The notes under the pieces were generated by a model, which did no database searches, was not told where the DNA came from, and saw nothing but the letters and a program-made list of their open reading frames with translations. The position numbers and the translations under genes are program-made. DNA of 14,586 bases from contig DYCA01000001.1 in NCBI GenBank assembly GCA_019418305.1, positions 96,675 through 111,260 of the forward strand, written 5' to 3'. Of this stretch, positions 1,329 through 14,421 are shown in pieces. The stretch comes from Clostridiales bacterium (GTDB taxonomy: Bacteria > Bacillota > Clostridia > Oscillospirales > Butyricicoccaceae). How positions within the stretch are numbered: the stretch's first letter is position 1; each line of letters begins with the position of its first letter.

Positions 1329-1333
1329 AAGAT
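1305..1333 (+). promoter_or_regulatory. Candidate promoter of the LysR gene, inside the transporter's 5' end
   Basis: TTGAAT (1305-1310), a 17-nt spacer and TAAGAT (1328-1333) match four of six bases at each hexamer. Transcription would begin near 1340, ahead of the strong AGGAGG at 1361-1366. The element lies within the first codons of the divergent transporter gene. Confidence 0.33.
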
Positions 1334-1373
1334 GTTCTTTCCTGTCAGTTTGAATTAAAGAGGAGGTTGCGGG

Positions 1374-2267
1374 TTGGAACTATATCAGCTCAGACAATTT
1401 GCAGCAGCGGCGCGGCTGGAAAACATGACACGCGCCGCGCAGGAACTCAATGTGGCGCAGCCCGCAGTATCCAAGACGATCCGGCATCTGGAGAATGAAC
1501 TGGGCGTTGAGCTGTTCGAGCGCACGGGCAAGGGCCTGCGCCGTACAGAAGCGGGCGATATTCTGCTGCGCTATACCCAGCAGATCTTACAGGCCGAGGA
1601 GGATGCGCGCCGCGAAATCGCGGAAAGCGCGCAGCAGGCCGGCAGCTTATGCATTTGCGCACTGTCCTTAAGCGAACAGATCGGTGAAATATTATCCGGT
1701 TTTACACGTGTCTGCGGTGATATTCGTTTCCGTGTCACCACCACGCCCGAGCAGAGCGATCTGCTGCTGGATTCCGCCGTCTCGCGTGAAGAAATCCCTG
1801 CGGATGCAGAGCTGCTCGGCAGCGAGGAGATTTGTCTGGCAGTACCATCCTCGCACCGGCTGGCAGAACAGGAAGCGGTCGCCCTATCCGAACTGACGGA
1901 AGATTCCTTCATTGTACTGCGCAACTCGCACTCATTCCGGCAAGTGTCCGAACACATCTTCCGCGCCACCGGATTGAACCCTCGTATCACCATTGAATGT
2001 GACAATGCGGCTCTTCAAAACCAGCTGATTTCGCTTGGCATGGGCGTCGCATTGGTCGCATCCAATGCCTGGCAGCATGCGCAACAGAACAACGACATCC
2101 GTCTGCTGCACATCCGAGACGCCGACTGCCGCCGTTATCTCTATATGCGAACACTCAGCCGATACCAAACGCGCGGCATGCGGGACTTCAAAGCCTATCT
2201 CCGCCGATTTTTCACCGATATTCAGGCTCAGGCACAGACTTCCAGCGGTACGGTCTCGCCATCATAA
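1374..2267 (+). CDS. LysR-family transcriptional regulator
   Basis: This 297-residue protein has a typical LysR N-terminal winged helix-turn-helix (about residues 1-65: MELYQLRQF, then MTRAAQELNVAQPAVSKTI and LENELGVELFERTGKGLRRT). An effector-binding, periplasmic-binding-protein-like domain follows from about residue 90 to 285. The start is TTG at 1374, fixed by a perfect AGGAGG (1361-1366) 7 nt upstream; there is no competing ATG. It is divergent from the AEC transporter, its most likely target, and LysR proteins usually respond to a small molecule of the pathway they control. The aminotransferase-dehydrogenase operon is a second possible target. Its last 40 bp overlap, tail to tail, with the dehydrogenase gene. 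Family identity is certain; ligand and targets are inferred. Confidence 0.93.
   Translation: MELYQLRQFAAAARLENMTRAAQELNVAQPAVSKTIRHLENELGVELFERTGKGLRRTEAGDILLRYTQQILQAEEDARREIAESAQQAGSLCICALSLSEQIGEILSGFTRVCGDIRFRVTTTPEQSDLLLDSAVSREEIPADAELLGSEEICLAVPSSHRLAEQEAVALSELTEDSFIVLRNSHSFRQVSEHIFRATGLNPRITIECDNAALQNQLISLGMGVALVASNAWQHAQQNNDIRLLHIRDADCRRYLYMRTLSRYQTRGMRDFKAYLRRFFTDIQAQAQTSSGTVSPS
1379..1407 (-). promoter_or_regulatory. Candidate promoter of the AEC transporter, inside the LysR 5' end
   Basis: On the minus strand a -10 TATAGT (1379-1384) is preceded by TGA, an extended -10. The -35 position 17 nt upstream (CTGCTG, 1402-1407) is poor. If used, transcription would start near 1372, so the two divergent transcripts would overlap by about 30 nt. 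The evidence is weak. Confidence 0.25.
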
Positions 2268-3229
2268 AAGCGTCGCAGGCTTTCGAGCGAGCACTGCACC
2301 ATATCAAACACCGCCTGATCGGTAAAGAATGCCATGTGCGGGGTAACGATGGTATTCTGGAAGGATTTCAGAATGATATAGTCGTGGTTGGTGACGCGGC
2401 TGTTATAGCTGTGGTCGACACGAATAACGTCGTCTTCCCCCTCAAAGCAGTCCACGCCCACCGCGCCGATCCGACCGGACTCAATGCCGTCGATCAGTGC
2501 GCCGGTGTCGATCAGCGCGCCGCGCGCACAGTTGATGATCACCACGCCTGCCTTCATCTTATCGATTGCCTGCGCATTGATCATGTGACGCGTGCTGTCA
2601 TCCAGGAAAGTGTGCAGCGTAATGACGTCTGCGTGTGCATACAACTGGTCGAGCGAAACATACTCCACATTCGTCAGGTTGGCCGACGGATAGGGATCGT
2701 ACGCGATGATGCGACAGCCGAAGCCGGACAGGTTTTCGATTACAGCCTTACCGATACGTCCGGTGCCGATCACGCCGACCGTCAGATTCTGCATTTCCAT
2801 GCCGCGCGCGGCGCCCGCAGCGCCCAGTGAATAGTCTGCCGTGTGAGAGCGGAACATGATATATCCGACCTTGCGAATGCACATGAGCATGAGCATGACC
2901 GTGTAGTTTGCTACCGAATACGGCGAGTACCCCGCGTGCGACACACGGATACCCAGACGGGCGGCAGCTTGCAAATCGACATTATCAAAACCGATCGTGC
3001 GCAGCGCCACATAGCGAACACCGTTCTCCGCCAGCGCCTCGAGCACCGGCGCGGACAGATTGCAGGTGCCCACACAGGACACGCCATCAAAGCCTTTCGT
3101 CATGTTGACATTTTTCATACTTAAGCCTTCCGGCTGATAGGTCAGCGCAATATCCAGCGTCTGTGACCAGTGCTCAAAAAAGGCGCGCTCGTCCGGACGG
3201 GCGCTGAACGCCATTACCTTCATTTGCAT
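2228..3229 (-). CDS. D-2-hydroxyacid dehydrogenase (LdhA/VanH-like), NAD-dependent
   Basis: The protein reduces a 2-keto acid to the (R)-2-hydroxy acid with NADH, in the cytoplasm. The Rossmann motif GTGRIGK and the catalytic set are visible: Arg in NCARGALIDT, Glu in DCFEGEDD, and His in TPHMAFFTDQA. The extended stretch between Glu and His, and the AFFT motif, resemble E. coli LdhA and VanH rather than glycerate or phosphoglycerate dehydrogenases. The reading frame opens with GTG at 3238, overlapping the aminotransferase stop. However, AAGGAG (3238-3243) sits 8 nt before the ATG at 3229 and has no room before the GTG, so I place the start at 3229 (333 residues). It is translated directly after the aminotransferase, which could supply its 2-keto acid. 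Lactate, phenylpyruvate-type and branched-chain keto acids are all possible substrates. Confidence 0.92.
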   Translation of the reverse strand: MQMKVMAFSARPDERAFFEHWSQTLDIALTYQPEGLSMKNVNMTKGFDGVSCVGTCNLSAPVLEALAENGVRYVALRTIGFDNVDLQAAARLGIRVSHAGYSPYSVANYTVMLMLMCIRKVGYIMFRSHTADYSLGAAGAARGMEMQNLTVGVIGTGRIGKAVIENLSGFGCRIIAYDPYPSANLTNVEYVSLDQLYAHADVITLHTFLDDSTRHMINAQAIDKMKAGVVIINCARGALIDTGALIDGIESGRIGAVGVDCFEGEDDVIRVDHSYNSRVTNHDYIILKSFQNTIVTPHMAFFTDQAVFDMVQCSLESLRRFYDGETVPLEVCA

Positions 3230-3234
3230 CTTTT

Positions 3235-4428
3235 TCACTCCTTAATCCATTCGTGTGTCAGTTTACCGAGAATTTCAATGCCGCGAACGATCTGTTCATC
3301 CGTGGGGGTGGAATAATTCAGGCGGAAACCGTTCGAAACCTTGCTTTCGTCTGCGAGGAATGCCGATCCAGGTACGCACAGCACGCCGCGCTTAATCGCC
3401 TCACGCACAAAGGGCTGCGCATCCATTCCGTCCGGCAGAAACGCCATGACAAACAGACCGCCCTCAGGCTGGCCGAACTGCACAGCCGGATGGAAGGTGC
3501 GGCGCATAGTGTCCAGCATGAGCTGACATTTAGCGCGGTAGATCTTGCGCGACTGTTCCAGATGCGCGGCGAAGTCATATTGGTTCATATAGGTGTCGCA
3601 GACATACTGGAACAGCACATTAGAATGTACATCTGTCGTCTGCTTGGCAACCGTCAGCGGCATGGTCAGCGCCTTGTCGAACACCAGAAAGCCCAGACGG
3701 AACGCCGGCGCCATGACCTTGGAAAAGCTGCCCGCATAGATAACGCGCCCTTCGGTATCCATCGACTTGATGGTAGGCACATTTTCACCCGCGAAACGCA
3801 GTTCGCCGTAAGGGTTGTCCTCGAGAATCGCGATGTCATAGCGGCAAGCCAATTCATACACCTTTTTGCGTTTTTCCAGCGTAGTGGTGATACCGGTCGG
3901 GTTCTGGAAGGAAGGAATTGTATACAGCAGCTTGGCCTCGGGATATGCCTTGAGCGCAGCCTCCAGCGCATCAATATCCATGCCGTCTTTCTGCATAGGA
4001 ATGCCGACCAACTTCGCGCCATACGCGCGGAAGGTGTTCAGACAGCCGACAAACGCCGGCTCCTCGGTCAGGACGACGTCGCCTTCGTTGACCAGTGCCT
4101 TGGTGGTCAAATCGGCGCACTGCTGTCCACCTGAGACAATGAACAACTCGTTTTTCTCAAAATCAAAGCCCTCCTGCGCGGCAAGATAACGCTTCATCGT
4201 CTCCCGCAGCGGCATATACCCTTCGGACAATCCATATTGCAGCATGGAAACCGGTGCTTTTTGCAGCACTTCTGTCACAATCTGCTCAATTTCCGCACAG
4301 GGAAATGTCTCCGCGGACGGATTGCCGCCGCCAAACGAGATTATGTTCGGATCAGCGCCAAGCTTAAACAGCTCACGGATCGCCGAGCCGTGCACACCGG
4401 ACAACCGGTTGGAAATCTGAAATTGCAT
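3235..4428 (-). CDS. PLP-dependent aminotransferase, class I/II (Aro8/LysN-like)
   Basis: This 397-residue fold-type I aminotransferase moves an amino group between an amino acid and a 2-keto acid in the cytoplasm. Visible landmarks are SGGQQCADL (cofactor phosphate region), NPTG, LEDNPYGELRF (the Asp that contacts the PLP nitrogen, and Tyr), the Schiff-base lysine in AGSFSKVMAPAFRLGF, and the carboxylate-binding Arg in GFRLNYSTP. The N-terminal ISFGGGNPSAETFP stretch is typical of the 2-aminoadipate / aromatic / MocR-derived group, here without a GntR DNA-binding domain. The ATG at 4428 has GGGAG about 9 nt upstream. It is first gene of a two-gene operon with the D-2-hydroxyacid dehydrogenase. 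The pair suggests amino acid to keto acid to hydroxy acid conversion, as in reductive amino-acid fermentation. Substrate specificity is not readable. Confidence 0.92.
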   Translation of the reverse strand: MQFQISNRLSGVHGSAIRELFKLGADPNIISFGGGNPSAETFPCAEIEQIVTEVLQKAPVSMLQYGLSEGYMPLRETMKRYLAAQEGFDFEKNELFIVSGGQQCADLTTKALVNEGDVVLTEEPAFVGCLNTFRAYGAKLVGIPMQKDGMDIDALEAALKAYPEAKLLYTIPSFQNPTGITTTLEKRKKVYELACRYDIAILEDNPYGELRFAGENVPTIKSMDTEGRVIYAGSFSKVMAPAFRLGFLVFDKALTMPLTVAKQTTDVHSNVLFQYVCDTYMNQYDFAAHLEQSRKIYRAKCQLMLDTMRRTFHPAVQFGQPEGGLFVMAFLPDGMDAQPFVREAIKRGVLCVPGSAFLADESKVSNGFRLNYSTPTDEQIVRGIEILGKLTHEWIKE

Positions 4429-4454
4429 ATCAATACGCTCCCTGATTTGAAAAT

Positions 4455-4493
4455 AAAAAAGGGCGCTGAAACCCCAAAATAGGTTTCAGCGCC
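4455..4493 (-). terminator. Hairpin plus T6 in the leader of the aminotransferase operon
   Basis: On the minus strand a perfect 12-bp stem GGCGCTGAAACC (4482-4493) pairs with 4462-4473 across an 8-nt loop and is followed by C and six Ts (4455-4460). This is the form of an intrinsic terminator. No minus-strand gene lies upstream of it before the divergent MATE gene, so it sits in the 5' leader of the aminotransferase-dehydrogenase mRNA, beginning about 9 nt after the predicted start. It could be an attenuator or a 5' stabilising hairpin. Confidence 0.6.
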
Positions 4494-4508
4494 TTTGCTG
4501 ATGATGAC

Positions 4509-4537
4509 AGTATACCAGCGTACTTGTTATTTGTCCA
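4509..4537 (-). promoter_or_regulatory. Predicted sigma-A promoter of the aminotransferase-dehydrogenase operon
   Basis: On the minus strand, -35 TGGACA (4532-4537), a 17-nt spacer and -10 TATACT (4509-4514) each match five of six consensus bases, with an extended -10 (TGG before TATACT). The predicted start is near 4502, immediately before the leader hairpin. Confidence 0.6.
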
Positions 4538-4602
4538 ATAGAAAACGGCTATAACGGTATAACCAACAGGAATGTCAATGAGCAAATTTTGCTATTTTCT
4601 GC

Positions 4603-4631
4603 TATACAGCGGCATACTGTTATGCTAAGAT
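4603..4631 (+). promoter_or_regulatory. Candidate promoter of the MATE exporter with overlapping inverted repeat
   Basis: TAAGAT (4626-4631) is preceded by TGC, an extended -10. A weak TATACA (4603-4608) lies 17 nt upstream. An inverted repeat GCATA-CTGT-TATGC (4612-4625) fills the spacer, the position expected for a repressor operator. The predicted transcript would carry a leader of about 85-90 nt before the ATG at 4725. Confidence 0.3.
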
Positions 4632-4641
4632 AGATTTGGTC

Positions 4642-4707
4642 TGCGCCGCCTGTTCGGCCGGAGCTTTTATATTTTCAGAAAGGACGGCGCACAATTTACT
4701 CTGCGCC
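4642..4707 (+). promoter_or_regulatory. Leader of the MATE gene with two mutually exclusive hairpins
   Basis: TGCGCCG-CC (4642-4650) can pair with GG-A-CGGCGCA (4682-4691, one bulged A). The 3' half of that arm, GGCGCA (4686-4691), can instead pair with a second copy of TGCGCC at 4702-4707 across a 10-nt loop. The two folds cannot coexist. Known guanidine-IV (mepA-motif) riboswitches occur upstream of MATE genes in Clostridia, but I could not match that consensus by eye. Function is unproven. Confidence 0.25.
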
Positions 4708-4724
4708 CACATTGCATAACCACC

Positions 4725-6101
4725 ATGGAACAATCCCTTTCGACCGCCCGGCTGCTCGAGCAGCATACGGTGCGGCATCTGGTGCTGCGTCTGGGTATCC
4801 CAGCGATGTTCGGCCAGTTTTTTAATATTCTTTACAGCATTGTCGACCGTATTTTCGTCGGTCAGATCCCGGAAACCGGCGGGATCGCGTTAGCGGCGAT
4901 CGGCGTATGTGCCCCGGCGCTGACTGCGATCACCGCCTTTGCCTATATGGTTGGCATCGGCGGCGCATCTGCCATGAGCATCAGTCTCGGTCAAAAAGAC
5001 CCGGAACGCGCCCGCGCAATCCTTGGCAATGCGATGCTGCTATTGCTCGGCATCTCGGCAGTCGTGACCGTGTCGCTGCTGCTATTCCGGCGGCCGGTGC
5101 TCTTTCTGCTTGGATGCAGTGACGCAATGTTCCCCTATGCACAAAGCTATTTTACGATCTATCTGTGTGGTACGGTCGCCTCGCTGTGCAGCATAGGCCT
5201 GAATCAGTTCCTACTCGCGCAAGGCTATGCCCGGCAGGGAATGGTTTCGGTGGTAATCGGTGCGGGCATCAATCTGCTCCTTGACCCGCTGCTGATCTTC
5301 GGGCTGGACATGGGGGTGGCAGGCGCTGCGGTTGCAACGGTGACTGCGCAAACCTGCATGGCGCTGTATGTGATTTTTCAACTGCGCCGCCCCAACATAC
5401 CGATTCGGCTTGGCCTTCATTCATGGAAAAGCGCATTGTGCCGCCGTATCGTAACCATCGGTTCAATGTCCTTTTTGATCACAATTCTGGATAATCTGAT
5501 CATCATTCTTCTGAATATCGTACTGCGGAAATATGGCGGTGCGGTACAGGGTGACCGCTTGATCACCTGCGCAACCGTCGTGCAGAGCTTTTTGACTATT
5601 GTTTTCTGTCCCGCGCAAGGCATCACCACAGGCTGCGGCACGATCTTCAGTTACCACTACGGCGCACGCAACTTCTCCAAAATCCAGCAGGCATTCGCGT
5701 ACATGTTCGCACTTTGCGCACTGTATATCGGCCTGATGCAGTTGAGCGTGCAGTTGTTTCCACAGGTATTCGTCGGGCTGTTTTTGCAAGACAGCAACCT
5801 GTACGCGCTCGCCGTGAACGCACTGCGGCTGTACACGTTCGCGCTGATCGGCGTGGCTGTGCAGTATGCACTGGTCGACGGCCTGACCGCAATGGGACTG
5901 ATCCGCTATGCGCTACCGCTTTCCGTGTTCCGCAAGCTGGTCTATTTGGCATGCATCCTTGTGCTGCCGCACTTGCTGGACATTCAGTACATCTTTCTGG
6001 CAGGCACCATTTCAGATGCAATCGGCGCGTCATTCAGTCTGCTGCTGTTTTTCTCGTATATTTTGCCACGACTACGGTGTTCGGACAACCACGTATCCTG
6101 A
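4725..6101 (+). CDS. MATE-family multidrug efflux transporter
   Basis: The 458-residue protein has the usual length and about twelve membrane segments in two six-helix halves. It begins with the family pattern TVRHLVLRLGIPAMFGQFFN followed by LYSIVDRIFVGQ, and GIGGASAMSISLGQKD closes the second helix. The second half repeats this around PAQGITTGCGTIFSYHYGAR. MATE proteins export cationic drugs, metabolites or guanidine-like compounds across the cytoplasmic membrane using H+ or Na+ gradients; the substrate here is unknown. The ATG at 4725 matches the family N-terminus, but I find no Shine-Dalgarno sequence in the 20 nt before it; the nearest purine run (AGAAAGGA, 4677-4684) is about 40 nt away. 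It is monocistronic and divergent from the aminotransferase operon, with no obvious functional tie to it. Confidence 0.92.
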   Translation: MEQSLSTARLLEQHTVRHLVLRLGIPAMFGQFFNILYSIVDRIFVGQIPETGGIALAAIGVCAPALTAITAFAYMVGIGGASAMSISLGQKDPERARAILGNAMLLLLGISAVVTVSLLLFRRPVLFLLGCSDAMFPYAQSYFTIYLCGTVASLCSIGLNQFLLAQGYARQGMVSVVIGAGINLLLDPLLIFGLDMGVAGAAVATVTAQTCMALYVIFQLRRPNIPIRLGLHSWKSALCRRIVTIGSMSFLITILDNLIIILLNIVLRKYGGAVQGDRLITCATVVQSFLTIVFCPAQGITTGCGTIFSYHYGARNFSKIQQAFAYMFALCALYIGLMQLSVQLFPQVFVGLFLQDSNLYALAVNALRLYTFALIGVAVQYALVDGLTAMGLIRYALPLSVFRKLVYLACILVLPHLLDIQYIFLAGTISDAIGASFSLLLFFSYILPRLRCSDNHVS

Positions 6102-6221
6102 TATGAGCATCCTCTTGCTTGCATCTGCAGACTATACGCTCGAACACCTAATCCCAGCAGAAAACGGACATAAAAACACCAAAGTTATTTATCTTAAAAT
6201 CAAAAACTGCGAAAAAATCAC

Positions 6222-6256
6222 AAAAAAGCCGCCTGTTCTTTCGAACAAGCGGCTTT
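6222..6256 (-). terminator. Intrinsic terminator between the MATE gene and the two-component operon
   Basis: AAAGCCGC (6225-6232) and TGTTC (6234-6238) pair with GAACA (6243-6247) and GCGGCTTT (6249-6256) around a TTTC loop, with one C·A mismatch. On the minus strand the stem runs into TTTTTT, so it best serves the minus-strand operon ending at 6499, some 240 bp upstream. The plus-strand side (GGCTTTCTT) could also stop the MATE transcript. The same hairpin, including the mismatch, recurs at 14525-14559. Confidence 0.7.
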
Positions 6257-6266
6257 CTTGGTATGC
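6222..6266. repeat. Left copy of a 45-bp direct repeat (43/45 identical to 14525-14569)
   Basis: The terminator hairpin plus ten further bases (CTTGGTATGC) are shared with 14525-14569. The only differences are T/A in the loop and T/C near the right end. Identity beyond the hairpin shows that the two copies are related by descent rather than by terminator function alone. Confidence 0.75.
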
Positions 6267-6498
6267 CTGATGCGATTTAAGCACATGGTCTTTGGCATCG
6301 GAGCAGTTGACTCCGGCTATTTTCATTGGTTGCAGCTTGGAAAGTGCGGTTTTCCCTCGCTTTTTCGCGCATGATCACCTGTTTTGCAACGCATGTACTC
6401 CACCGAAAACAAGCCGCGAACGCCAAGCCATCGTACGGCAAAGCATGCATATTCAGATACCTTTAACCACAGTATGACATGAAGGTAAAACGGAGAAT
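6267..6498. other. Non-coding stretch downstream of the pseudo-ATPase gene
   Basis: Between the repeat/terminator and the stop of the minus-strand gene at 6499 I see no reading frame with a credible start, ribosome binding site or family match. A short segment ATGTACTCCA (6393-6402) also follows the right copy of the repeat (14573-14582), but with no insert there. The region may be a long 3' untranslated tail or decayed sequence. Confidence 0.4.
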
Positions 6499-7926
6499 TT
6501 ATTCGTTAATATAGTGCAACCTTTGCAGAAATTCTTTGTTTTGTGTTTTTTCGCAAATTGCATCAATACCGGATGATATGACCCAGATTGCCATCCCCCT
6601 TCTGGCACAGGTTACAAGCATATCAATAATCATTTCGTGATGTGCCGATTCCTGCCCTGCAAACGGAAAAAAACAGATCAGCAGCCGCGGATTGAGCAAA
6701 TACCATTTATAGTAGGAAAACCGAAGCCGTTCCGGCAGGGTCCATTCACACAGTGGACGCAGCAGAGCATCCCCATTAAACCATCTCGATGCTTCCTGCT
6801 GAATATTTCCCATAATTTTTTTGCGGATAATGTGCCTCCCGGCTTTCGGAAGCAAGCAGATGCTCAGATTGTCCTGCGCGGTCAATTTATCAAACAATAC
6901 GCCGCTTGGACGGTCCGGACGTTCAATTTGGATTCCGATTTCCGTACCGATAATGCGCGATAATTCGCTATGCTCATATTTTTTGCCATTCAGACGAAAT
7001 TCTCCGCTCAACCAGCTTTGTTCCCGTAAAAAACAATCCCGGATTTGTGATACCGTATTATAGTTTTCATCCCTCAGAAAAGCAATTTCACCGCTGCGAA
7101 TCTGAAAATTCAATGGTTTCAGCTTGCGAAATGCCAGATTCTCAATCGACAGAATGATTTTTTCATCGTGATACGGCTCCGAACGGACTGTGCTACTCCG
7201 ACGTTTCCACCCTAGAATTTCATACAGTCGATCGTCATATTCTTCCGGATATAATCGATAAAATGATTTTCGATTTTTGATAATTTCGACCCGGCTGGTA
7301 TATTGATACAGAAATTCTTCATCCATATCACAGAGCATCACGGAGGTCCCCTGCTTGAGCAAAATCTGGATGCACTGCATGAGCTGCTCCAAATCCTTCC
7401 ACCGCAGAATCTCTGTCAATCGATCCAAAATGAGCAACTCGCTTTTCCAAAACCAAACACGGAACACAGAAAGCCGATAGTAATCCAGCAAGGAAAGTGA
7501 GCAAAGCTTTTGCGTCCATGAAAAAAGCAGCCCCATCTGCTGCAGCATTTCCGCTGTTTCCGACGTGTGCAGCGCGGCTTCTGCTTCCTTATTCTTTCGC
7601 CACCGCATCGGTTTGCTCAGAGCCATCATAAAATCCCAGACCGTCAATTCTTTGGAATCAAACCGGAATTTATCGGCTATGATGCTGTGCTGCATGACCC
7701 AGTGCTCTAAATCAATAGAACCCATACGGCGTCCATATAAAAAGACTTTTCCGCTTTTCATATGCGAATAACCCTTGAAAATATCCAAGAAAGCAGTACC
7801 GGATGTTAAGTGCTCATCCACGTAGATTCCGATGCACTCTCCACGGGAAATCGCAATATCAAATTGATAATCGCTTCCTTCTCGCTGAAAATGGCCATTT
7901 TCAACACGGATTAGTTCTTCTTTCAT
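6499..7926 (-). CDS. Degenerate tandem ABC protein (RbsA/MglA-like pseudo-ATPase), putative signalling adaptor
   Basis: This 475-residue protein aligns along its whole length with the genuine sugar ATPase at 12477-13970 but has lost the catalytic motifs. In domain 1 (about 1-225) the Walker A position GENGAGKS reads DEHLTSGT, the signature region reads LSLLDYYRL, Walker B LDEPT reads LDRLTE, and the H-loop His is gone. In domain 2 (about 245-475) Walker A reads RDENYNTV, LSGGNQQ reads TLPERLRF, and LDEPTRG reads CFFPFAGQ. Surrounding framework (GKVFLYGR, GEFRLNGK, WYLLNPRLLI, WVISSGIDAI) is kept and the frame is intact, so this is not a decaying pseudogene. ATG at 7926 has AGGAGG 11 nt upstream, inside the end of the kinase gene. 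Last gene of a regulator-kinase operon. I infer a non-hydrolysing partner of the kinase and/or sugar permease. Confidence 0.8.
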   Translation of the reverse strand: MKEELIRVENGHFQREGSDYQFDIAISRGECIGIYVDEHLTSGTAFLDIFKGYSHMKSGKVFLYGRRMGSIDLEHWVMQHSIIADKFRFDSKELTVWDFMMALSKPMRWRKNKEAEAALHTSETAEMLQQMGLLFSWTQKLCSLSLLDYYRLSVFRVWFWKSELLILDRLTEILRWKDLEQLMQCIQILLKQGTSVMLCDMDEEFLYQYTSRVEIIKNRKSFYRLYPEEYDDRLYEILGWKRRSSTVRSEPYHDEKIILSIENLAFRKLKPLNFQIRSGEIAFLRDENYNTVSQIRDCFLREQSWLSGEFRLNGKKYEHSELSRIIGTEIGIQIERPDRPSGVLFDKLTAQDNLSICLLPKAGRHIIRKKIMGNIQQEASRWFNGDALLRPLCEWTLPERLRFSYYKWYLLNPRLLICFFPFAGQESAHHEMIIDMLVTCARRGMAIWVISSGIDAICEKTQNKEFLQRLHYINE

Positions 7927-7929
7927 CGA

Positions 7930-8751
7930 TTATCCATCCTCCTGCGATAACAGCGGAAGCGTGATGCAGCACTCCGTACCAATACCAGCCGCACTGTAAA
8001 TCCGAAGGCCGTAATCTTCTCCAAACATCAGTCGGATTCGACTGTTGACATTCCGCAGCGCAATGCCGCCTCGCTGCTGACCGCTGACAGCTGTGCTGTC
8101 CCCTGCAAACTGTGCATTTAATCTTTCGACCTGTTCTTCCGGCATGCCGATGCCATCGTCGCGCACACGCAAAAACAGAGTCTGTTCACTGTTTTCCACA
8201 ATGATCCGAACCGTACCATGCTCAATCTTACCTTCCAGCCCATGTGAAACCGCGTTCTCAACAAGAGGCTGCAAAATAAGCTTGGGCATGCGTGCCTCCA
8301 ACAGATTTTCATTTTCCATTTCCAACTCCAGAGAGAGTTTGTCACCAAAACGGCAGCGCTGAATGGTAAAATAATTTTCAGCATTGTCCAGTTCATCGGA
8401 AAAGGTGACGTATTCCTGCACATTGGAAATGGTATAGCGAAAAAAAGTGGCTAAAGCCTCGGTAGTTTCAGCGATTTCTTCGCAATCCGCCAGCAGCGCA
8501 TCCGCACGGATCGCTTCCAACGCATTATAGAGAAAATGCGGATTGATCTGATTTTGCAGCGCGAGATATTCCGCCTGTTTCTGCCGTAACTTCGTAATTT
8601 CTTCACCATGCAGCCGGTCCTCAATAGCACCCAGAAATGCACTCAAATTCGGACTTCTGCTCCAGTCCAAACGCAGCACGGCTTCCAGATTTTTGTCATT
8701 TTTATAACGTCGAAGTGCACGCCAGAATTGCAATCCACCTCTCAACGACAT
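7930..8751 (-). CDS. Sensor histidine kinase, YesM/LytS type, soluble, without sensor domain
   Basis: This 273-residue kinase consists of a short N-terminal helix-rich region (1-60, ending in a likely coiled coil, EEITKLRQKQAEYLAL), the His_kinase domain and the HATPase_c domain. The phospho-acceptor is His72 in QINPHFLYN. The ATP-binding N-box is Asn166 in LVENAVSHG, the D-box is RDDGIGMPEE, and the G-box is in RGGIALRNVNSRI. It should autophosphorylate and pass phosphate to the response regulator encoded just upstream. Family members usually carry two membrane segments, an extracellular sensor and a HAMP domain (500-600 residues). None is present here, and the start has an upstream AAGG about 7 nt away, so truncation by a wrong start is unlikely. 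It lies 9 bp after the regulator stop and 3 bp before the pseudo-ATPase start. The signal input must come through a partner. Confidence 0.92.
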   Translation of the reverse strand: MSLRGGLQFWRALRRYKNDKNLEAVLRLDWSRSPNLSAFLGAIEDRLHGEEITKLRQKQAEYLALQNQINPHFLYNALEAIRADALLADCEEIAETTEALATFFRYTISNVQEYVTFSDELDNAENYFTIQRCRFGDKLSLELEMENENLLEARMPKLILQPLVENAVSHGLEGKIEHGTVRIIVENSEQTLFLRVRDDGIGMPEEQVERLNAQFAGDSTAVSGQQRGGIALRNVNSRIRLMFGEDYGLRIYSAAGIGTECCITLPLLSQEDG

Positions 8752-8760
8752 AGGATCACC

Positions 8761-10344
8761 TTACTTGTACAGCTTTTTATAATCCGATGGACTTACGCCT
8801 GTCGTTTTTTTGAACAGGCGGGAAAAATACTTCAGATCCCGGTAGCCTACCATTTCTGCAACATCCTGAATGGACAAGCCATCCGCACAAAGCAGCTCTT
8901 TGGATTTATTGATCCGCAGCTCGGTCAAATAATCCATAAAATTCTGACCGGTCTCCTTTTTAAATAGGGCAGAAAAATAGGTTGCATTGAATCCAACCGC
9001 ACTGCTGACATCCTCCAGACGCAATGCTTCTTGATAATGCTGCTGGATATAGCGCTTGGCTTCGGTGATCGGACGCGTTTCTTTTCGAGATTTTTCTTCC
9101 TTGAGCGACTGGATCTGCTGCCGGATGCCTTCTCGCAGCAATCGGAAAATATCTTGTGCGTTGGTGCATCGCCAGAATTTTTCCCGCATGGTTTCTGAAA
9201 ACCGATCTTCTACGTTTCCGCTTTGCTTCATACCGTAATTGGCGGCATCCACAATCTGTTCAAACCAGTCTTCCAGCATTTGTCCATTCAGCGGTTTTCT
9301 TGGCAAAATACAACGATAACTATCATCCAATTCCTGTTGAAACCGGTCTTCGTCCAAGCATTCCGCCGCTTCCTGGAATCGCTTTTTCTGCGCAGGGTCC
9401 ATTTGATACCGTTCGCCCAATGCAGGCGATTCGGCCTCCGCATCCCGCCATGGCTGCACCCGGCAAAGTCGATCCAGACAAAGCCACATCGCCTCACGCA
9501 TAGAAATATCCATTTGCTCCAGACAGTTTTTCCGACTGCCCAAGCAGATTGTGCTTCGGATATCCCAAAACAAATCGCGCTGTTTTTCGATCTCCTTACG
9601 AATCTTCGTGAACGCCTGTTTAACTTCGACCGCCTGATAATTCCGCAGGAATAATATGGCTGCTACGCCTTCCTTTTGGACAGAAACTGCATATTCATCG
9701 GCCAGTTGATGAACCTCACGTCGCACAATCTCCAAAGCATGATGCATGATCATCTGGTATCCATCTCGATACTGTTCTGCATTGGAGATATCCGGTTTGA
9801 CCAGAACAGCGAAATAACTGCCCGCTGCAAAGTGAAAGCCATATTCCGACGCTGCTTGTTCCGCGTTTAGAAAGGACTCATGTCGGGCAACAGCATTTTC
9901 AAGCGCAGCCATCAGCTGTTCCTGACACCGCTCCCCGCTCTTTTTCAACTGAAATTCCAGTTCCGCTTCCTCTCCCAGTTTATCCTTTAAGCGAAGCAGA
10001 ATCCCGCACAGTTCTTCCTGCTTGAGCGGTTTGAGAAGATAATCCTCAACACCATATTTCAGGGCATTCTGTGCATATTCAAATTGGCGATACCCACTGA
10101 TTACAATTGAATGCAATTTGGGCTGCAGCTCCTTGGCACGACGGATTAAATCAATTCCGTCACAACCGGGCATGCGTATATCGGTTATAAGCAGGTGAGG
10201 CTGCTTTTCTTTTACCAGCTCCAGAGCACGAAAGCCGTCATTGGCAATTCCGACGACTTCATAACCAAGCGATTGCCAATCAATTAGCTTCTGCATCAGC
10301 AAAATCACTTTGATTTCATCGTCTGCAAGAACTACCCTTAACAT
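8761..10344 (-). CDS. Response regulator with AraC-type DNA-binding domain (YesN family)
   Basis: The protein has 527 residues from the ATG at 10344. The receiver domain (1-120) has the acidic pair Asp8-Asp9, the phospho-acceptor Asp55 in LITDIRMPG, and the conserved Lys in DYLLKPLK. A linker region of about 300 residues follows, as is usual in the YesN group. The last 100 residues are an AraC double helix-turn-helix (LEDVSSAVGFNATYFSALFK, then IQDVAEMVGYRDLKYFSRLF). The open frame extends 25 codons upstream to 10419, but that stretch is the translated palindrome and promoter. The start at 10344 is preceded by GGGGGTG 4 nt upstream and matches the receiver N-terminus. It should be phosphorylated by the adjoining kinase and probably activates the sugar ABC operon immediately upstream. 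Confidence 0.94.
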   Translation of the reverse strand: MLRVVLADDEIKVILLMQKLIDWQSLGYEVVGIANDGFRALELVKEKQPHLLITDIRMPGCDGIDLIRRAKELQPKLHSIVISGYRQFEYAQNALKYGVEDYLLKPLKQEELCGILLRLKDKLGEEAELEFQLKKSGERCQEQLMAALENAVARHESFLNAEQAASEYGFHFAAGSYFAVLVKPDISNAEQYRDGYQMIMHHALEIVRREVHQLADEYAVSVQKEGVAAILFLRNYQAVEVKQAFTKIRKEIEKQRDLFWDIRSTICLGSRKNCLEQMDISMREAMWLCLDRLCRVQPWRDAEAESPALGERYQMDPAQKKRFQEAAECLDEDRFQQELDDSYRCILPRKPLNGQMLEDWFEQIVDAANYGMKQSGNVEDRFSETMREKFWRCTNAQDIFRLLREGIRQQIQSLKEEKSRKETRPITEAKRYIQQHYQEALRLEDVSSAVGFNATYFSALFKKETGQNFMDYLTELRINKSKELLCADGLSIQDVAEMVGYRDLKYFSRLFKKTTGVSPSDYKKLYK

Positions 10345-10375
10345 AATCCACCCCCGGTAAATACGGATGCTATAA

Positions 10376-10407
10376 GAAAAGGGAAAACGAATTCGTTTTC
10401 CCTTTTC
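10376..10407 (-). repeat. Perfect 32-bp palindrome at the start of the regulator transcript
   Basis: The 16-base half GAAAAGGGAAAACGAA is followed exactly by its reverse complement. In RNA it gives a 14-bp stem with an AATT loop, or a 9-bp GGGAAAACG stem followed by TTTTCTTAT. It may terminate the sugar operon transcript (binding-protein stop at 10475). It begins only about 1-2 nt after the predicted start of the regulator operon, so it also forms that mRNA's 5' end. Confidence 0.75.
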
Positions 10408-10414
10408 CATATTC

Positions 10415-10443
10415 ATCATAACACTTTAGCTGACGTTTGCCAA
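10415..10443 (-). promoter_or_regulatory. Predicted sigma-A promoter of the regulator-kinase-pseudo-ATPase operon
   Basis: On the minus strand, -35 TTGGCA (10438-10443), a 17-nt spacer and -10 TATGAT (10415-10420) match five of six bases each, with TGT before the -10 (extended -10). The predicted start is near 10408 and the leader about 64 nt. The three regulatory genes can therefore be transcribed separately from the sugar operon that precedes them. Confidence 0.6.
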
Positions 10444-10459
10444 ATGAAAATCATGCATA

Positions 10460-10483
10460 TACGAATAAGGGCTCTTATTCGTA
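10460..10483 (-). other. Hairpin spanning the stop codon of the binding-protein gene
   Basis: TACGAATAAG (10474-10483 on the minus strand) pairs perfectly with CTTATTCGTA (10460-10469) across a 4-nt loop. The TAA stop lies inside the 5' arm. There is no T-run after it, so it looks like a 3' stabiliser or RNase barrier for the abundant binding-protein message rather than a terminator. Confidence 0.4.
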
Positions 10484-11446
10484 ATCCGCAACATTGGATG
10501 CGTCGATCCAGGTGTTGTCAGTGATAATCACGTTCTCATCCAGCGTACCGCCGTCGAGCAGTGTAACAGCGGCTTCGATAGCGTTGGCAGCCATTGCGCC
10601 GCCGTTCTGGGAAACCGTGCCGGTGATACGGCCATCTTTGATGGCTTCAAAGCCGTCCGGCGTACCATCGACACCCGCAATAACAATACCGCTGTTCGCA
10701 CCAGCTGCATTACCGGCGCCAACTGCCATGCCGTCATTCTCGCAGATGATCGCATCCAGATCATATGCGGACAGCCAGCTCTCCACCGTTGCCTGCGCGC
10801 TGGCAGTATCCCACTGGCAGTCTGCCGGTGCAACGACCTGAACCATGTCCGGATAATTCTTCAAAACATTCTCATAGCCTTCCATGCGCTGCAATCCACC
10901 TGAGTCACCGGAGGGGCCGGTCAGGATCGCGATGTTGCCTTTGCCATTCAGCAGATCCGCAACATGCTGCATTTCGGTCTCGCCAGCCTTGACATTATCG
11001 CCATAGGAAACCGCCGAAATGCCGTAATTTTCCCAATCGGTGCAAGCCGAAATGATGTTGATTACAACCACACCCGCATCCGCTGCGCTCTTGGCAGCAT
11101 CGCACAGGCCGTCTGGATCAACAGGCTCAAACAGAATCGCATTATAGCCTTCGGAGACACACTGCTCAATCTGACTGATCTGCGTGGCAGCATCCTGATC
11201 CGCGCTCAGGATCGTCAGTTCAACGCCCATCTCCTCGGCCTTTGCCTCGGCTGCTTCGGATACTGCAATCTGGAATGCGTTGGTCTGATGCTGCTGAATC
11301 AGCGCAATCTTATAAGCACCGTCGGTTGAATCTGTGCCTGCATCAGAATTCTGCGAATCATTGGTTGCGGTGTTGCCGCAGCCGGTTGCCACGCCCAGCG
11401 TCATTGCGCCAGCCATCAGCATGGCAAGAAGTCTCTTTTTACTCAT
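10475..11446 (-). CDS. Sugar ABC transporter substrate-binding lipoprotein (RbsB-like)
   Basis: This 323-residue exported lipoprotein has a basic N-terminus (MSKKR), a hydrophobic core and the lipobox-like ATGC with Cys23 as the lipidation site. A Ser/Thr/Asn/Asp-rich tether comes next. The mature part is a type I periplasmic-binding-protein fold (Peripla_BP_4 group). Characteristic points are ALIQQHQTNAFQIAVSEAAE, AILFEPVDPDG, AILTGPSGDSGG, ICENDGMAVGAG, IAGVDGTPDGFEAI and ITGTVSQNG, which line the sugar pocket in RbsB-type proteins. It should capture a monosaccharide or polyol outside the membrane and hand it to the permease encoded upstream. The ATG at 11446 has GGAGG 7 nt upstream. It is third gene of the ATPase-permease-binding protein operon, 68 bp after the permease stop. 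Ribose, galactose and inositol-type ligands cannot be told apart by eye. Confidence 0.92.
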   Translation of the reverse strand: MSKKRLLAMLMAGAMTLGVATGCGNTATNDSQNSDAGTDSTDGAYKIALIQQHQTNAFQIAVSEAAEAKAEEMGVELTILSADQDAATQISQIEQCVSEGYNAILFEPVDPDGLCDAAKSAADAGVVVINIISACTDWENYGISAVSYGDNVKAGETEMQHVADLLNGKGNIAILTGPSGDSGGLQRMEGYENVLKNYPDMVQVVAPADCQWDTASAQATVESWLSAYDLDAIICENDGMAVGAGNAAGANSGIVIAGVDGTPDGFEAIKDGRITGTVSQNGGAMAANAIEAAVTLLDGGTLDENVIITDNTWIDASNVADYE

Positions 11447-11514
11447 TTTACTTCCTCCTCAAATGCATTTATGATAAGAACAGGACAGGATTTTGCCTTT
11501 GTTCCTAACATCCG

Positions 11515-12462
11515 TCAGTCTTTCTTACTCTTACCCTTGACATCAATCAGAACCGCCAGAACAATAATGGCACCCTTTACGATCTTCTGCCAGTGCGACG
11601 AAACACCCATGATATCCAGACCGTTTGCAATTACCGTAATCAGCAAGCAGCCGACGACAACCCCCCACGACTTGCCAACGCCGCCCGACATGGATACGCC
11701 GCCGACAACGCATGCGGTAATCGCATCCATTTCGTAGCTTTCTGCTGCAGTCGGTTGTCCAATCGTAACACGAGAGGTCATCAGGAAGCCGCTCAAGCCT
11801 GCCAGCAAACCGGCAATCGCAAAGGTGGAAATGCGGATCATCGTCGTATTGATACCAGAAACGCGAGCTGCCTGTAAGTTACCTCCGCAGGCATAAACGC
11901 GACGACCATAAACCGTTTTAGATAACACGAAGGAACAAATCAGAATAACAATCACTAAGAAAATCGCCAGCATTGGGATACCAGCAATCGAGTTTGCGGC
12001 AACCGCCCTATATTCCTGGCTGATACCGGTAATCGGCTTACCGTTGGAAGTCAAAAGTGCCAAGCCACGGACCGCGGTCATGGTGCCAAGCGTCATAATG
12101 AACGGCGGCAAGTCACCCACTGCGACGCCAACGCCGTTGACAACGCCGACGGCAAGTCCTGCCAGCATGGCGATAACGAGCGGTACGATCAGCGGATACT
12201 GTCCCTGCCCCAGCATTGCAGCTAAAATGCCTGCAAATGCAACCGTTGAGCCGACCGACATATCAAAACCACCGGCAATGATGACAAACATCATGCCAAA
12301 TGCCAGAATGCCATTGATCGAGGCCTGCTTTAAGATATTGACCAAATTGCTTGGCTGAATGAAGCTGGGCTTCAAGCAAGTCAACACAATTACCAACGCA
12401 ATAAAGATCACGAAAATAAAATATTCACTGACCAGTGCTTTTGCACTTTTCGTCTTTTTCAT
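11515..12462 (-). CDS. Sugar ABC transporter permease (RbsC-like)
   Basis: This 315-residue membrane protein of the BPD_transp_2 family has about eight to ten membrane segments. Diagnostic stretches are NILKQASINGILAFGMMFVI, IAGGFDMSVGSTVAFAGILA, PPFIMTLGTMTAVRGLALL and the cytoplasmic coupling region YEMDAITACVVGGVSMSGG, matching the RbsC / XylH / MglC group. As a homodimer it should form the channel through which the bound sugar passes, driven by the tandem ATPase. The ATG at 12462 has AAGGGG 5 nt upstream, and 14 bp separate it from the ATPase stop, so the two are co-transcribed. Only one permease gene is present, as normal for this class. Its coupling helices are also the likely docking site for the pseudo-ATPase, if that protein contacts the transporter; this is inference. 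Confidence 0.93.
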   Translation of the reverse strand: MKKTKSAKALVSEYFIFVIFIALVIVLTCLKPSFIQPSNLVNILKQASINGILAFGMMFVIIAGGFDMSVGSTVAFAGILAAMLGQGQYPLIVPLVIAMLAGLAVGVVNGVGVAVGDLPPFIMTLGTMTAVRGLALLTSNGKPITGISQEYRAVAANSIAGIPMLAIFLVIVILICSFVLSKTVYGRRVYACGGNLQAARVSGINTTMIRISTFAIAGLLAGLSGFLMTSRVTIGQPTAAESYEMDAITACVVGGVSMSGGVGKSWGVVVGCLLITVIANGLDIMGVSSHWQKIVKGAIIVLAVLIDVKGKSKKD

Positions 12463-12476
12463 AGTTTCCCCTTCCT

Positions 12477-13970
12477 TTATACCTCAATGGCTGAGGCGAG
12501 CGTCATAATCCGTTCCTGCGAGAACTCATCCCGTGTAACCTCGCCCGAAAGCTTGCCTTCGCACATTACCATAATCCGATCGCAAACACCCATCAGCTCT
12601 GGAATTTCCGAAGAAATCATGATAACCGCTTTGCCTTGCTGCACCAAACTGCCCAGCAGCAGATAAATGTCGCGCTTTGCACCGACATCGATACCTCGGG
12701 TGGGCTCATCCAAAATAATAATATCCGGATCGTTCAGCAGCCACTTTGCAATAACCACTTTCTGCTGATTGCCGCCAGACAAATTACCAACAATCTGATC
12801 GCCGGAAGGAGTTTTGATATTCAGTTTTTTGATATACTCCATTGAGGCACTGCGTGCTTTATTTTTGTTATACAAACCATTGGTGACCAGTTTTTGAATG
12901 GCAACCATCGCAATGTTATCGTTGACCGAACCGCTTAGGTTCAGGCCGGTTACCTTACGGTCTTCTGTGATTAAGGCTACGCCTTCCTTGATGATATCGT
13001 GCGGCGAGTGCACATTGACTTTTTTGCCCTTAACAAAAATTTCTCCGCCGGAAAGCTCATGCATACCGAAAATGCCTTCCACCAATTCGCTGCGTCCTGC
13101 GCCGACCAGACCGCCGATTCCAAGAATTTCTCCCTTACGGACAGAAAAACTGACACCCTTCACCTTGTTATCCGCACGGACAATATCTTTGGCTTCAAAA
13201 ACGACATCACCGATTTGTGCATCCAATTTCGGGAATACATCCGTAATCTCACGACCAACCATCATTTTAATCAGCTGCGCTTCGTTTAGGTCTTTTGTGT
13301 CGCCCGAACCAATGTACTGACCATCACGATATACGCTGACACGATCACAAATGGTGAAGATTTCATCCATACGATGCGATATGTAAATGATGGCAACGCC
13401 TTTTTCTTTCAGCCTGCGAATATGGCCAAACAGCAGCTCCACTTCGCGTTCCGTGATGGCGGCTGTTGGCTCATCCATTATAATAACTTTTGCCTTGATA
13501 GAGATCGCCTTGATGATTTCGATCAACTGACACTGTGCAACGGTCAGATTGCGAAGCTTTTCCTTAGGAGATACGTGCAGTCCGCATTCTTCAATCAGCT
13601 TTTGCGCCTCTTCTATTTCTGCTTTGTTATCTACCAAACCGTGCTTACGCAGCTCCCGGCCTACAAAAATGTTTTCATACACGGTCATATCCAGAATCGG
13701 ATTCAATTCCTGATGAATCATTGCAACACCATGATCCATAGCCTCTTTGGGATTAGAAACCTTATATGGTTGCCCATTAAAGAGGATTTCCCCGCCTTCA
13801 TCCTTGGTGTAAATGCCCATCAAGATTTTCATCAGTGTGGATTTTCCCGCACCGTTTTCTCCCATAAGCGCATGCACTTCTCCGGGTTTTATCTGAAGCT
13901 GTACATGGTTCAGCGCTTTGACGCCGGGAAATGTCTTGCTGATATCCTTCATTTCCAGAATATACTCCAT
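12477..13970 (-). CDS. Sugar ABC transporter ATP-binding protein, tandem domain (RbsA/MglA-like)
   Basis: This 497-residue protein holds two fused ABC domains. Domain 1 has a perfect Walker A (GENGAGKST), Q-loop (MIHQELN), Walker B (IIMDEPTAA) and H-loop His (ISHRMDEI). Its signature is atypical (LTVAQCQL), as usual in this class. Domain 2 has the usual degenerate Walker A (GLVGAGRSE), a canonical signature (LSGGNQQK) and Walker B (IILDEPTRGIDVGA). It powers import of a monosaccharide through the adjoining RbsC-like permease. The frame opens at an ATG at 13994, but GGAGG 7 nt before the ATG at 13970, and the family N-terminus MEYILEMKDISKTFPG, fix the start there. It is the first gene of the operon, about 30 nt after the predicted transcription start. 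It is the intact counterpart of the degenerate protein at 6499-7926. Confidence 0.94.
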   Translation of the reverse strand: MEYILEMKDISKTFPGVKALNHVQLQIKPGEVHALMGENGAGKSTLMKILMGIYTKDEGGEILFNGQPYKVSNPKEAMDHGVAMIHQELNPILDMTVYENIFVGRELRKHGLVDNKAEIEEAQKLIEECGLHVSPKEKLRNLTVAQCQLIEIIKAISIKAKVIIMDEPTAAITEREVELLFGHIRRLKEKGVAIIYISHRMDEIFTICDRVSVYRDGQYIGSGDTKDLNEAQLIKMMVGREITDVFPKLDAQIGDVVFEAKDIVRADNKVKGVSFSVRKGEILGIGGLVGAGRSELVEGIFGMHELSGGEIFVKGKKVNVHSPHDIIKEGVALITEDRKVTGLNLSGSVNDNIAMVAIQKLVTNGLYNKNKARSASMEYIKKLNIKTPSGDQIVGNLSGGNQQKVVIAKWLLNDPDIIILDEPTRGIDVGAKRDIYLLLGSLVQQGKAVIMISSEIPELMGVCDRIMVMCEGKLSGEVTRDEFSQERIMTLASAIEV

Positions 13971-14006: not shown

Positions 14007-14034
14007 ATTTTATCAAAGTATTTCATATTCTCAA
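14007..14034 (-). promoter_or_regulatory. Predicted promoter of the sugar ABC operon with overlapping inverted repeat
   Basis: On the minus strand, -35 TTGAGA (14029-14034), a 16-nt spacer and -10 TAAAAT (14007-14012) match five of six bases each. TGA precedes the -10 (extended -10). An inverted repeat TGATAA-AA-TTATCA (14002-14015) covers the -10 and could be a repressor operator. The predicted start is near 14000, giving a 30-nt leader. Confidence 0.5.
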
Positions 14035-14421
14035 ACTTTCATTTTTCACATGAGGGGGGAGGATTTTTGGATATTTTGTAAAATAGTGAATATAGAACAA
14101 ATCACTGATTTAATTTTGTATATTTTATACATTAAAATTTGCATGTTTAAAGCATTCTATACATAAAAGAACCTTACTGGCATTGCATATTATCCAATAT
14201 TCAACCTGAGGTTGATTTTAAAAACAAATGCGCATAAATTGTACTGCTATCCTCAGCCCGCCCCAAATTCCACTTCATGCATAAAGCACACACTGATCGT
14301 GCGCAGACACAGCCAAAGAATGGAAAACCTTCTCCTTTTACAACCATCTGTCCATTTTCAAGCAATTCGCCCACTTATTTATACAAGACGGACAATCCAT
14401 ACAGCAACCTCTTTTCTGCAA
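14035..14421. other. AT-rich control region upstream of the sugar operon, no gene seen
   Basis: Positions 14060-14165 are very rich in A and T. The word ATTTTGTA occurs at 14073-14080 and again at 14113-14120, 40 bp apart in the same orientation. Each copy sits in a local inverted repeat (ATTTT-GT-AAAAT at 14073-14084; GTATA-TTT-TATAC at 14118-14130). This is a reasonable location for response-regulator binding, but no site is established. From about 14200 to 14421 I see no gene with a credible start or family match. Confidence 0.35.

Follow-up and report, generated by a model that had tools for sequence, protein, structure and literature searches.

How does a histidine kinase that has no sensor domain of its own receive its signal? 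The question is raised by a locus of Clostridiales bacterium (family Butyricicoccaceae; assembly GCA_019418305.1, contig DYCA01000001.1), of which we analyzed a stretch of 14,586 nucleotides, positions 96,675 to 111,260 of the forward strand (hereafter the window). Here the genes of a sugar ATP-binding cassette (ABC) importer are followed by those of a response regulator, a soluble kinase, and psA, a full-length relative of the importer ATPase RbsA in which both ATP sites are lost. The same question arises for many Bacillota systems in which sensorless kinases couple sugar uptake to gene control. An earlier reading of the same DNA from its letters alone (the sequence-only reading) had named six genes in the order ATPase, permease, binding protein, regulator, kinase, and pseudo-ATPase, and had proposed that the pseudo-ATPase docks on the permease or the intact ATPase and relays sugar occupancy to the kinase. 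We confirmed all six genes, closely packed on the minus strand between positions 6499 and 13970 in that order (Table 1). Comparison of loci across genomes shows, for the predicted proteins, a conserved signaling module of which a catalytically dead RbsA is a regular part; the dead copy is not peculiar to the window but is the rule across a large class of systems.

A scan of a species-genome collection gave 35 loci (designated by L numbers), and in all 32 taken forward the kinase gene lies directly before psA; where the contig reaches far enough, the importer is directly upstream or, in L013, L014, L017, and L026, downstream on the other strand. In the full set of 102 loci, which leaves out L032 (cut) and L033 and L035 (fragments), a short kinase gene directly precedes an RbsA-like gene in 98. 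The exceptions are L138 and L140, which begin at a contig end, L218, where the RbsA-like gene is in two pieces, and L220, with a half-size nucleotide-binding domain (NBD) upstream of the regulator. The spacing between the two genes, measured from the starts of the longest frames, is at most 25 nucleotides (nt) in 93 of the 98 loci, with a 4-nt overlap in 20, overlaps beyond 4 nt being uncertain. These trios are accompanied by a regulator in 95 loci, by an intact RbsA within 11 kb in 81, and by RbsA or a permease in 83. Among the 15 in which neither was found, 12 lie by a contig end, L074 has its importer beyond the distance limit of the script, and neither gene occurs in 18 kb of L147 or of L213; in these last two the trio adjoins genes for a binding protein and for long proteins of ~770 to 830 amino acids (aa). 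The sequence-only reading had named the independent occurrence of the pseudo-ATPase, apart from kinase or transporter, as speaking against its model; when this was tested, the outcome did not refute the model, with a short kinase directly before the RbsA-like gene in 98 of 102 loci and RbsA or a permease nearby in 83 of those 98.

psA itself occurs in 15 of 87 genomes from the family of the L002 genome and in 2 of 350 from that of the L017 genome, and queries with distant relatives against 397 genomes from the family of the L029 genome returned psA at 43 of the top 44 places examined, the 44th (L148) being an ordinary RbsA. A wide profile recovered it from 8 of 245 genomes at the class level (at least 459 bits, next match 292 bits) and from 3 of 249 at the phylum level (at least 462 bits, next match 277 bits); with few candidates scored per genome, all of these tallies are lower bounds. 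Ordinary RbsAs reach as much as 293 bits on the psA profile, and the 139 to 346 bits of the divergent kinase-linked proteins fall inside or close to their range; these proteins were therefore recognized by the adjoining kinase rather than by score.

The reverse search, from the kinase, covered 120 genomes and gave 39 short-form matches of at least 292 bits; a full-length RbsA-like gene stands directly behind 37 of them, and the remaining two are the kinases of L218 and L220. Nineteen of the 39 come from known loci, all with an RbsA-like gene behind them, and 18 of the 20 new ones have a full-length RbsA-like gene; a short kinase in G456:C79 (317-aa frame, 243 bits) falls under the score cut and outside the counts. 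In contrast, none of nine long (~600-aa) kinases is directly followed by an RbsA-like gene (38 of 39, with L218 counted in, versus 0 of 9; Fisher's test, P = 6e-9). A kinase directly upstream was also found for none of 22 control RbsAs, of which L195 begins near a contig edge and L199 has a regulator and a kinase downstream. In L218 (9298-10427), the second piece of the divided gene has an intact NBD2 signature and Walker B motif.

By relationship and fold, psA is a full-length tandem-NBD, RbsA-like protein; its best NCBIfam match is YtfR (residues 23 to 459, 45 bits against a cut-off of 850), and it scores 21.5 bits against a Pfam ABC_tran cut-off of 25. No RbsA chain was among the 50 structure-comparison matches listed for it, an absence that carries no weight. 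As the sequence-only reading had recognized, it is a pseudo-ATPase: both Walker A motifs, the NBD2 signature, the Walker B glutamates, and the H-loop histidine are gone, and none of the scored motifs is left. It is not the sole ATPase for the permease, as the operon also encodes an intact RbsA. In the window's branch the former P-loop has been rewritten yet is highly conserved, around VDxHxTSGTA. We found 183 homologues of psA, 470 to 498 aa long in 113 of the 120 listed and down to ~50% identity, and ratios of nonsynonymous to synonymous substitution (dN/dS) of 0.07 and 0.03 indicate purifying selection. The low dN/dS, the full-length homologues, and the conserved motif replacements exclude chance and a pseudogene as origins of this frame. 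A phage origin was rejected, with one weak phage match only (22% identity over 43% of psA), as was a plasmid origin, for which 20 listed of 271 plasmid records showed 20 to 23% identity, mostly to sugar ABC ATPases where annotated.

The source names of the homologues include Mobilisporobacter, Diplocloster, Anaerocolumna, Hydrogenoanaerobacterium, Clostridium, and Paenibacillus, and locus L001, from an uncultured Agathobaculum, encodes a psA 92% identical to that of the window, which therefore probably comes from this genus or a close neighbor. One homologue at 99% (P0001) is labeled Agathobaculum sp. Marseille-P7918, but the genome record of that strain (L002) has a psA with just 87% identity to the window's. 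A full psA locus (L023) and, on other contigs, two stray C-terminal fragments of psA (L033:9788-10258 and L035) are present in Agathobaculum butyriciproducens DSM 100391.

Loss of the ATP motifs extends through the kinase-linked proteins. Among 68 of them, the strict Asp-Glu of the NBD2 Walker B is present in none, compared with all 14 neighboring or control RbsAs; the NBD2 signature SGG is present in one (L146), the NBD1 Walker A in 10, the NBD1 Walker B Asp-Glu in 7, and the NBD1 H-loop His in 35. The NBD1 Walker B Glu, the NBD2 signature, and the NBD2 Walker B are jointly absent in 61 of the 68, and the RbsA controls (n = 14) retain all five motifs counted. Seven motif patterns were scored, of which NBD2 Walker A and the NBD1 signature were dropped before counting because only 0 and 4 of the 14 controls matched them; the nonstrict NBD2 Walker B pattern also admits Asp-Gln, the form found in L146. 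Four motifs, namely Walker A, NBD1 Asp-Glu, SGG, and NBD2 Walker B, were also looked for in further database homologues; each is absent from all of the 119 best-scoring ones, while the H-loop His is kept in 118.

The kinase of the window carries the His_kinase (PF06580) and HATPase_c domains, with no further Pfam domain above cut-off, and its catalytic boxes are invariant in an alignment of 22 sequences. LytS/YesM-type kinases are typically membrane anchored, with an extracytoplasmic sensor; the window kinase departs from that form in having no predicted membrane segment, in agreement with the soluble, sensorless kinase of the sequence-only reading. None of the 32 loci of the window's branch has a predicted membrane segment ahead of the kinase H-box, and the hydrophobic stretch that a whole-length scan flags in some of these kinases (residues ~251 to 272) is inside the ATPase domain. 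Outside the branch, 58 of 66 kinases have at least 45 hydrophobic residues within at most 71 positions, that is, two helices with almost no loop; of the other eight, four have a shorter stretch and four have none, namely L224 and L226 as well as L074, whose frame is split, and L219, which lies at a contig end. No extracytoplasmic sensor was found in the short kinases examined, and with the kinase lacking a sensor, its partner protein psA is the most evident input. We consider it highly probable that psA belongs to the kinase complex, likely as its sensor subunit.

The origin of this partnership can be followed in the tree. In a FastTree phylogeny of 153 sequences, with L001 in place of the window psA, 76 kinase-linked proteins form one clade (support 0.937), to which control L199 is sister (support 0.997). 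The first branch within the clade is L146, which keeps all scored motifs except for a Glu-to-Gln change in the NBD2 Walker B; its near-intact ATPase gene (8072-9523) occupies the psA position behind a short kinase and adjoins a separate, divergent importer. L199/L237 is also kinase linked, in the gene order RbsA-regulator-kinase. The RbsA of L237 (8684-10210, listed alongside a kinase at 5518-6975) keeps the NBD1 Walker A, the NBD1 Asp-Glu, and the NBD2 signature and has Asp changed to Asn in the NBD2 Walker B, and its kinase retains ~120 residues between two membrane helices; L237 is a likely ancestral form. Because the earliest branches (L146 and L199/L237) are kinase linked and have most ATP motifs, partnership with the kinase seems to have come before catalytic death and sensor loss, the exact branching order being uncertain with such long branches. 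The proteins form a graded series from mostly intact (L237 and L146) through half-dead (e.g., L225, L143, and L144) to dead. An N-terminal mark, E-[ILV]-[ILVM]-R, is found in 73 of 98 kinase-linked proteins and in none of 81 neighboring RbsAs, and in one protein of 837 aa, P0231, the kinase domains and a complete dead RbsA are in one chain. We tentatively suggest, with less than even confidence, that a class of Bacillota two-component systems arose by duplication of an importer ATPase, its attachment to a kinase, and subsequent loss of ATP hydrolysis, the dead motor now serving as a receptor that senses, on the cytoplasmic side, which conformation an RbsC-type permease is in. Under this scenario the kinase would have been free to lose its sensor and, in the branch of the window as well as in L224 and L226, its membrane anchor.

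On the output side, the "AraC regulator" of the sequence-only reading does have an AraC helix-turn-helix domain, but its full identity is that of a YesN-type response regulator with a PF00072 receiver. The receiver shows in its sequence an acidic pair, a phospho-acceptor Asp, and a Lys, whose roles we take to be those that the motif implies. Translation probably starts at 10344 rather than 10419, since many relatives are 527 aa long. We infer that this regulator binds a putative operator upstream of rbsA, which beats all 40 shuffles in 26 of 27 rbsA upstream regions, four rearranged loci included, and fails in L029; the motif was derived from the window, where it has 0 mismatches by construction. 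Its 28-base core, at up to 3 mismatches, has 10 sites in 87 genomes (0 for the reversed control), of which nine are ~6 kb upstream of a psA gene, the position of the rbsA promoter, and the tenth (G036) is before an rbsA orthologue, with the contig ending just after; six of the 15 psA genomes have no match at this threshold. A search in front of the regulator gene, run without shuffled controls, gave best operator matches with 12 to 17 mismatches for 31 loci and with 14 for the window. The importer promoter is probably the single main target of the regulator.

Taken as a whole, our best explanation, to which we give about an even chance, is that the three-part module of regulator, sensorless kinase, and dead RbsA is coupled to an RbsABC-type importer by psA, which reads the permease. 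psA would bind the kinase and, through a docking face derived from RbsA, would sit on the cytoplasmic face of a permease of the RbsC type; this would be the permease of the importer or, at certain loci, a private one. Without ATP hydrolysis it would not drive transport and would instead be moved by the permease when the loaded binding protein engages, and this movement would pass to the kinase, to phosphorylation of the regulator, and to switching of the rbsA promoter.

Contact with an RbsC-type permease is plausible, at about even odds. Private permease genes of the RbsC family (PF02653, 74 to 126 bits) overlap psA in L140, L141, L215, and L224 and apparently arose in three lineages; L141 and L215 also hold a separate complete importer. 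A private permease and a dead ATPase could possibly make up a complete pseudo-transporter used as a receptor and, on the duplication scenario suggested above, such loci would encode pseudo-transporters serving only as sugar receptors. Among 94 RbsA columns that are at least 90% conserved, only N360 (N353 in psA) is kept in all 46 kinase-linked proteins aligned, and the ATP-site residues of RbsA are mostly kept in 2 to 43%. The retained Asn belongs to a V-x-D-N-I segment after the NBD2 Q-loop that presumably lies near the coupling helices of the permease.

Several points weigh against the explanation as a whole. The kinase of L140 is not visible, the contig beginning at psA. A structural role could account for the retained Asn, whose NBD1 counterpart, kept in 76% of the proteins, is lost in the window psA (F99). 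Some kinase-linked members may still bind nucleotide, because the NBD1 H-loop His and Walker A persist in the minorities and halves counted above (35 and 10 of 68). In a mirror-tree analysis of the six genes two units emerged, regulator-kinase-psA on the one side and RbsA-permease-binding protein on the other. In this analysis, which is weak for psA with its distances near saturation, the psA-permease remainder, given kinase and regulator, was not significant (reached by 62/500 and 88/500 permutations), and the psA-RbsA remainder was reached by 45 and 93 of 500. Stronger signals were obtained for kinase and permease (0 and 18 of 500) and for regulator and permease (0 and 43), a pattern that would fit direct signaling from permease to kinase. 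No such importer was found in 18 kb at L147 and L213, and L076 has a permease and a binding protein with no RbsA nearby. Finally, the P0231 fusion, found in one cluster with 3 members on 1 contig, could reflect a lost stop codon. The relay model of the sequence-only reading is thus partly supported; it draws strength from the kinase linkage, the fusion, and the operator at the importer promoter, but the mirror-tree gave no psA-permease co-variation beyond that of kinase and regulator.

A different possibility is that psA is a kinase sensor that binds a cytosolic small molecule (a sugar phosphate, nucleotide, or other metabolite) in its remodeled ATP sites or domain interface and touches no permease. 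We regard this as rather unlikely, yet it explains the kinase linkage, the fusion, and the clade equally well, and the conserved rewritten P-loop of the window's branch is what a new ligand site would be expected to look like; the NBD1 Walker A of 10 members, the mirror-tree result for psA and the permease, and the two loci with no importer nearby also agree with it. It is opposed by the former ATP site, which is not conserved in one new form across the wide class, and it leaves unexplained the private permeases overlapping psA and the usual RbsABC neighborhood.

It is also conceivable, if improbable, that the permease or the binding protein acts directly on the kinase in the manner of BceS, psA being merely a scaffold or brake. 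In its favor, it is the kinase and the regulator, not psA, that co-vary with the permease, and the two-helix-length stretch of the 58 kinases outside the window's branch corresponds to an intramembrane-sensing layout, as described in the available passages of PMC7828314. However, the kinases of all 32 window-branch loci and of L224 and L226 have no membrane segment before the H-box, and the RbsA-like gene is still kept there. That psA acts on transport, as a dead ATPase competing with RbsA for the permease and throttling uptake, would suit its RbsA-like fold, the retained Asn, and the private permeases, but is very unlikely given its place behind the kinase in nearly all loci, its co-variation with kinase and regulator, and the fusion of the two in P0231. 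A functionless, decaying duplicate of RbsA, to which the lost catalytic motifs would point, can be practically dismissed in view of the purifying selection, the near-full-length homologues, and the retention of psA beside the kinase.

The features of the locus are collected in Table 1. The importer is of the RbsABC type, its ATPase, permease, and binding protein matching ribose, arabinose, xylose, and related families, and its proteins reach none of the curated cut-offs among the importer families listed; the operon has a single binding-protein gene. Neighboring genes in the window (414-6101) encode a Mem_trans permease, a LysR regulator, a 2-hydroxyacid dehydrogenase, a class I/II aminotransferase, and a MatE transporter, with no evident tie to the operon.

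Table 1. Features of the window, with private permease genes of other loci (positions within each locus)
Feature	Position	Strand	Basis or remark
RbsA-type tandem ATPase of the importer, motifs intact	12477..13970	-	open frame reaches 13994
RbsC-type permease, BPD_transp_2	11515..12462	-	domain match
RbsB/AlsB-like sugar-binding protein, Peripla_BP_4	10475..11446	-	domain match
YesN-type response regulator, receiver and AraC helix-turn-helix	8761..10344	-	open frame reaches 10419
LytS/YesM-type histidine kinase, 273 aa, without membrane segment or sensor domain	7930..8751	-	with phospho-His H72 and the N and G boxes
psA, full-length RbsA-like tandem-NBD protein, both ATP sites lost	6499..7926	-	begins 3 nt past the kinase stop codon
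psA D168-R169, NBD1 Walker B with catalytic Glu changed to Arg	7420..7425	-	invariant, 37 sequences
psA N353, V-x-D-N-I segment after NBD2 Q-loop	6868..6870	-	alignment of 46 kinase-linked proteins
Putative operator TCCAAAAATC-nn-CCCCCCTCATGTGAAAAAT, AAAAAT repeated at 22 bp, upstream of rbsA	14041..14071 (31 bp)	-	motif search
Promoter-like TTGAGA-16-TAAAAT, TG before -10, 6 bp downstream of operator	14007..14034	-	consensus match only
Promoter-like TTGGCA-17-TATGAT before regulator gene	10415..10443	-	consensus match only
Terminator-like hairpin, 18 pairs and T-run, 3' of psA	6221..6260	-	strong
Private permease gene, L215	10367-11293
Private permease gene, L141	7124-8056
Private permease gene, L140	1638-2585
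Private permease gene, L224	5510-6556

If the reading in which psA senses the permease for the kinase is right, then one answer to the opening question, for a large class (>200 listed protein clusters), would be that a copied transporter motor has taken on the role of a sensor. This reading would also explain genes named "ABC-type sugar transport system ATPase subunit" or "ribose transport system ATP-binding protein," whose products are probably not ATPases. The series from mostly intact through half-dead to dead proteins makes the order of events, with partnership first and catalytic death later, testable.

The sequence-only reading had taken a dead RbsA relay to be no textbook mechanism, and we likewise found no description of a dead RbsA beside a kinase in the literature searched (titles, abstracts, and passages, with subscription papers, bioRxiv, and supplements outside reach). 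Clostridia have a known two-component pair beside a sugar ABC importer, XylFII-LytS/YesN, in which an extra binding protein serves as the sensor on the kinase ectodomain. PhoU, the go-between of the Pst-PhoU-PhoR system, is not an ABC ATPase. In BceAB-BceRS and related systems, according to the passages available, a kinase that lacks an extracytoplasmic sensor takes its cue from the state of an ABC transporter, and the paired regulator controls the genes of that transporter (PMC7828314). The window system resembles these in its adjoining ABC transporter and in the missing extracytoplasmic sensor of its kinase. Its transporter is of the RbsABC type, unlike the BceAB type with its large permease loop, and whereas BceS reads the working transporter itself in the account available, the window system adds an ATP-dead copy of the importer ATPase. 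The ectodomain-free BceS layout with two transmembrane segments fits the same 58 relatives outside the window's branch, whereas the window kinase has no membrane part. In Pst-PhoU-PhoR, too, a separate protein joins an ABC importer to a histidine kinase (PMC9239213); the go-between of the window is instead a paralogue of the importer's own ATPase. CuaDSR, as the accessible part of its description has it, is likewise a clostridial two-component pair by a sugar ABC importer with a second transporter-type subunit recruited as sensor (PMC10384115). The recruit of XylFII-LytS and CuaDSR is an extracellular binding protein, however, whereas that of the window is a cytoplasmic ATPase serving a kinase without an ectodomain. 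GxgRS with GxgABC of Caldicellulosiruptor bescii also combines a CUT2 importer with a local two-component system, and "A1" of the same organism, known by its table label alone, may be a second ATPase and thus a member of the class (both from the portions available of PMC8579813). Transporter-coupled kinases are thus known already, and what the present locus adds, as far as the literature searched shows, is a putative receptor made from a dead motor.

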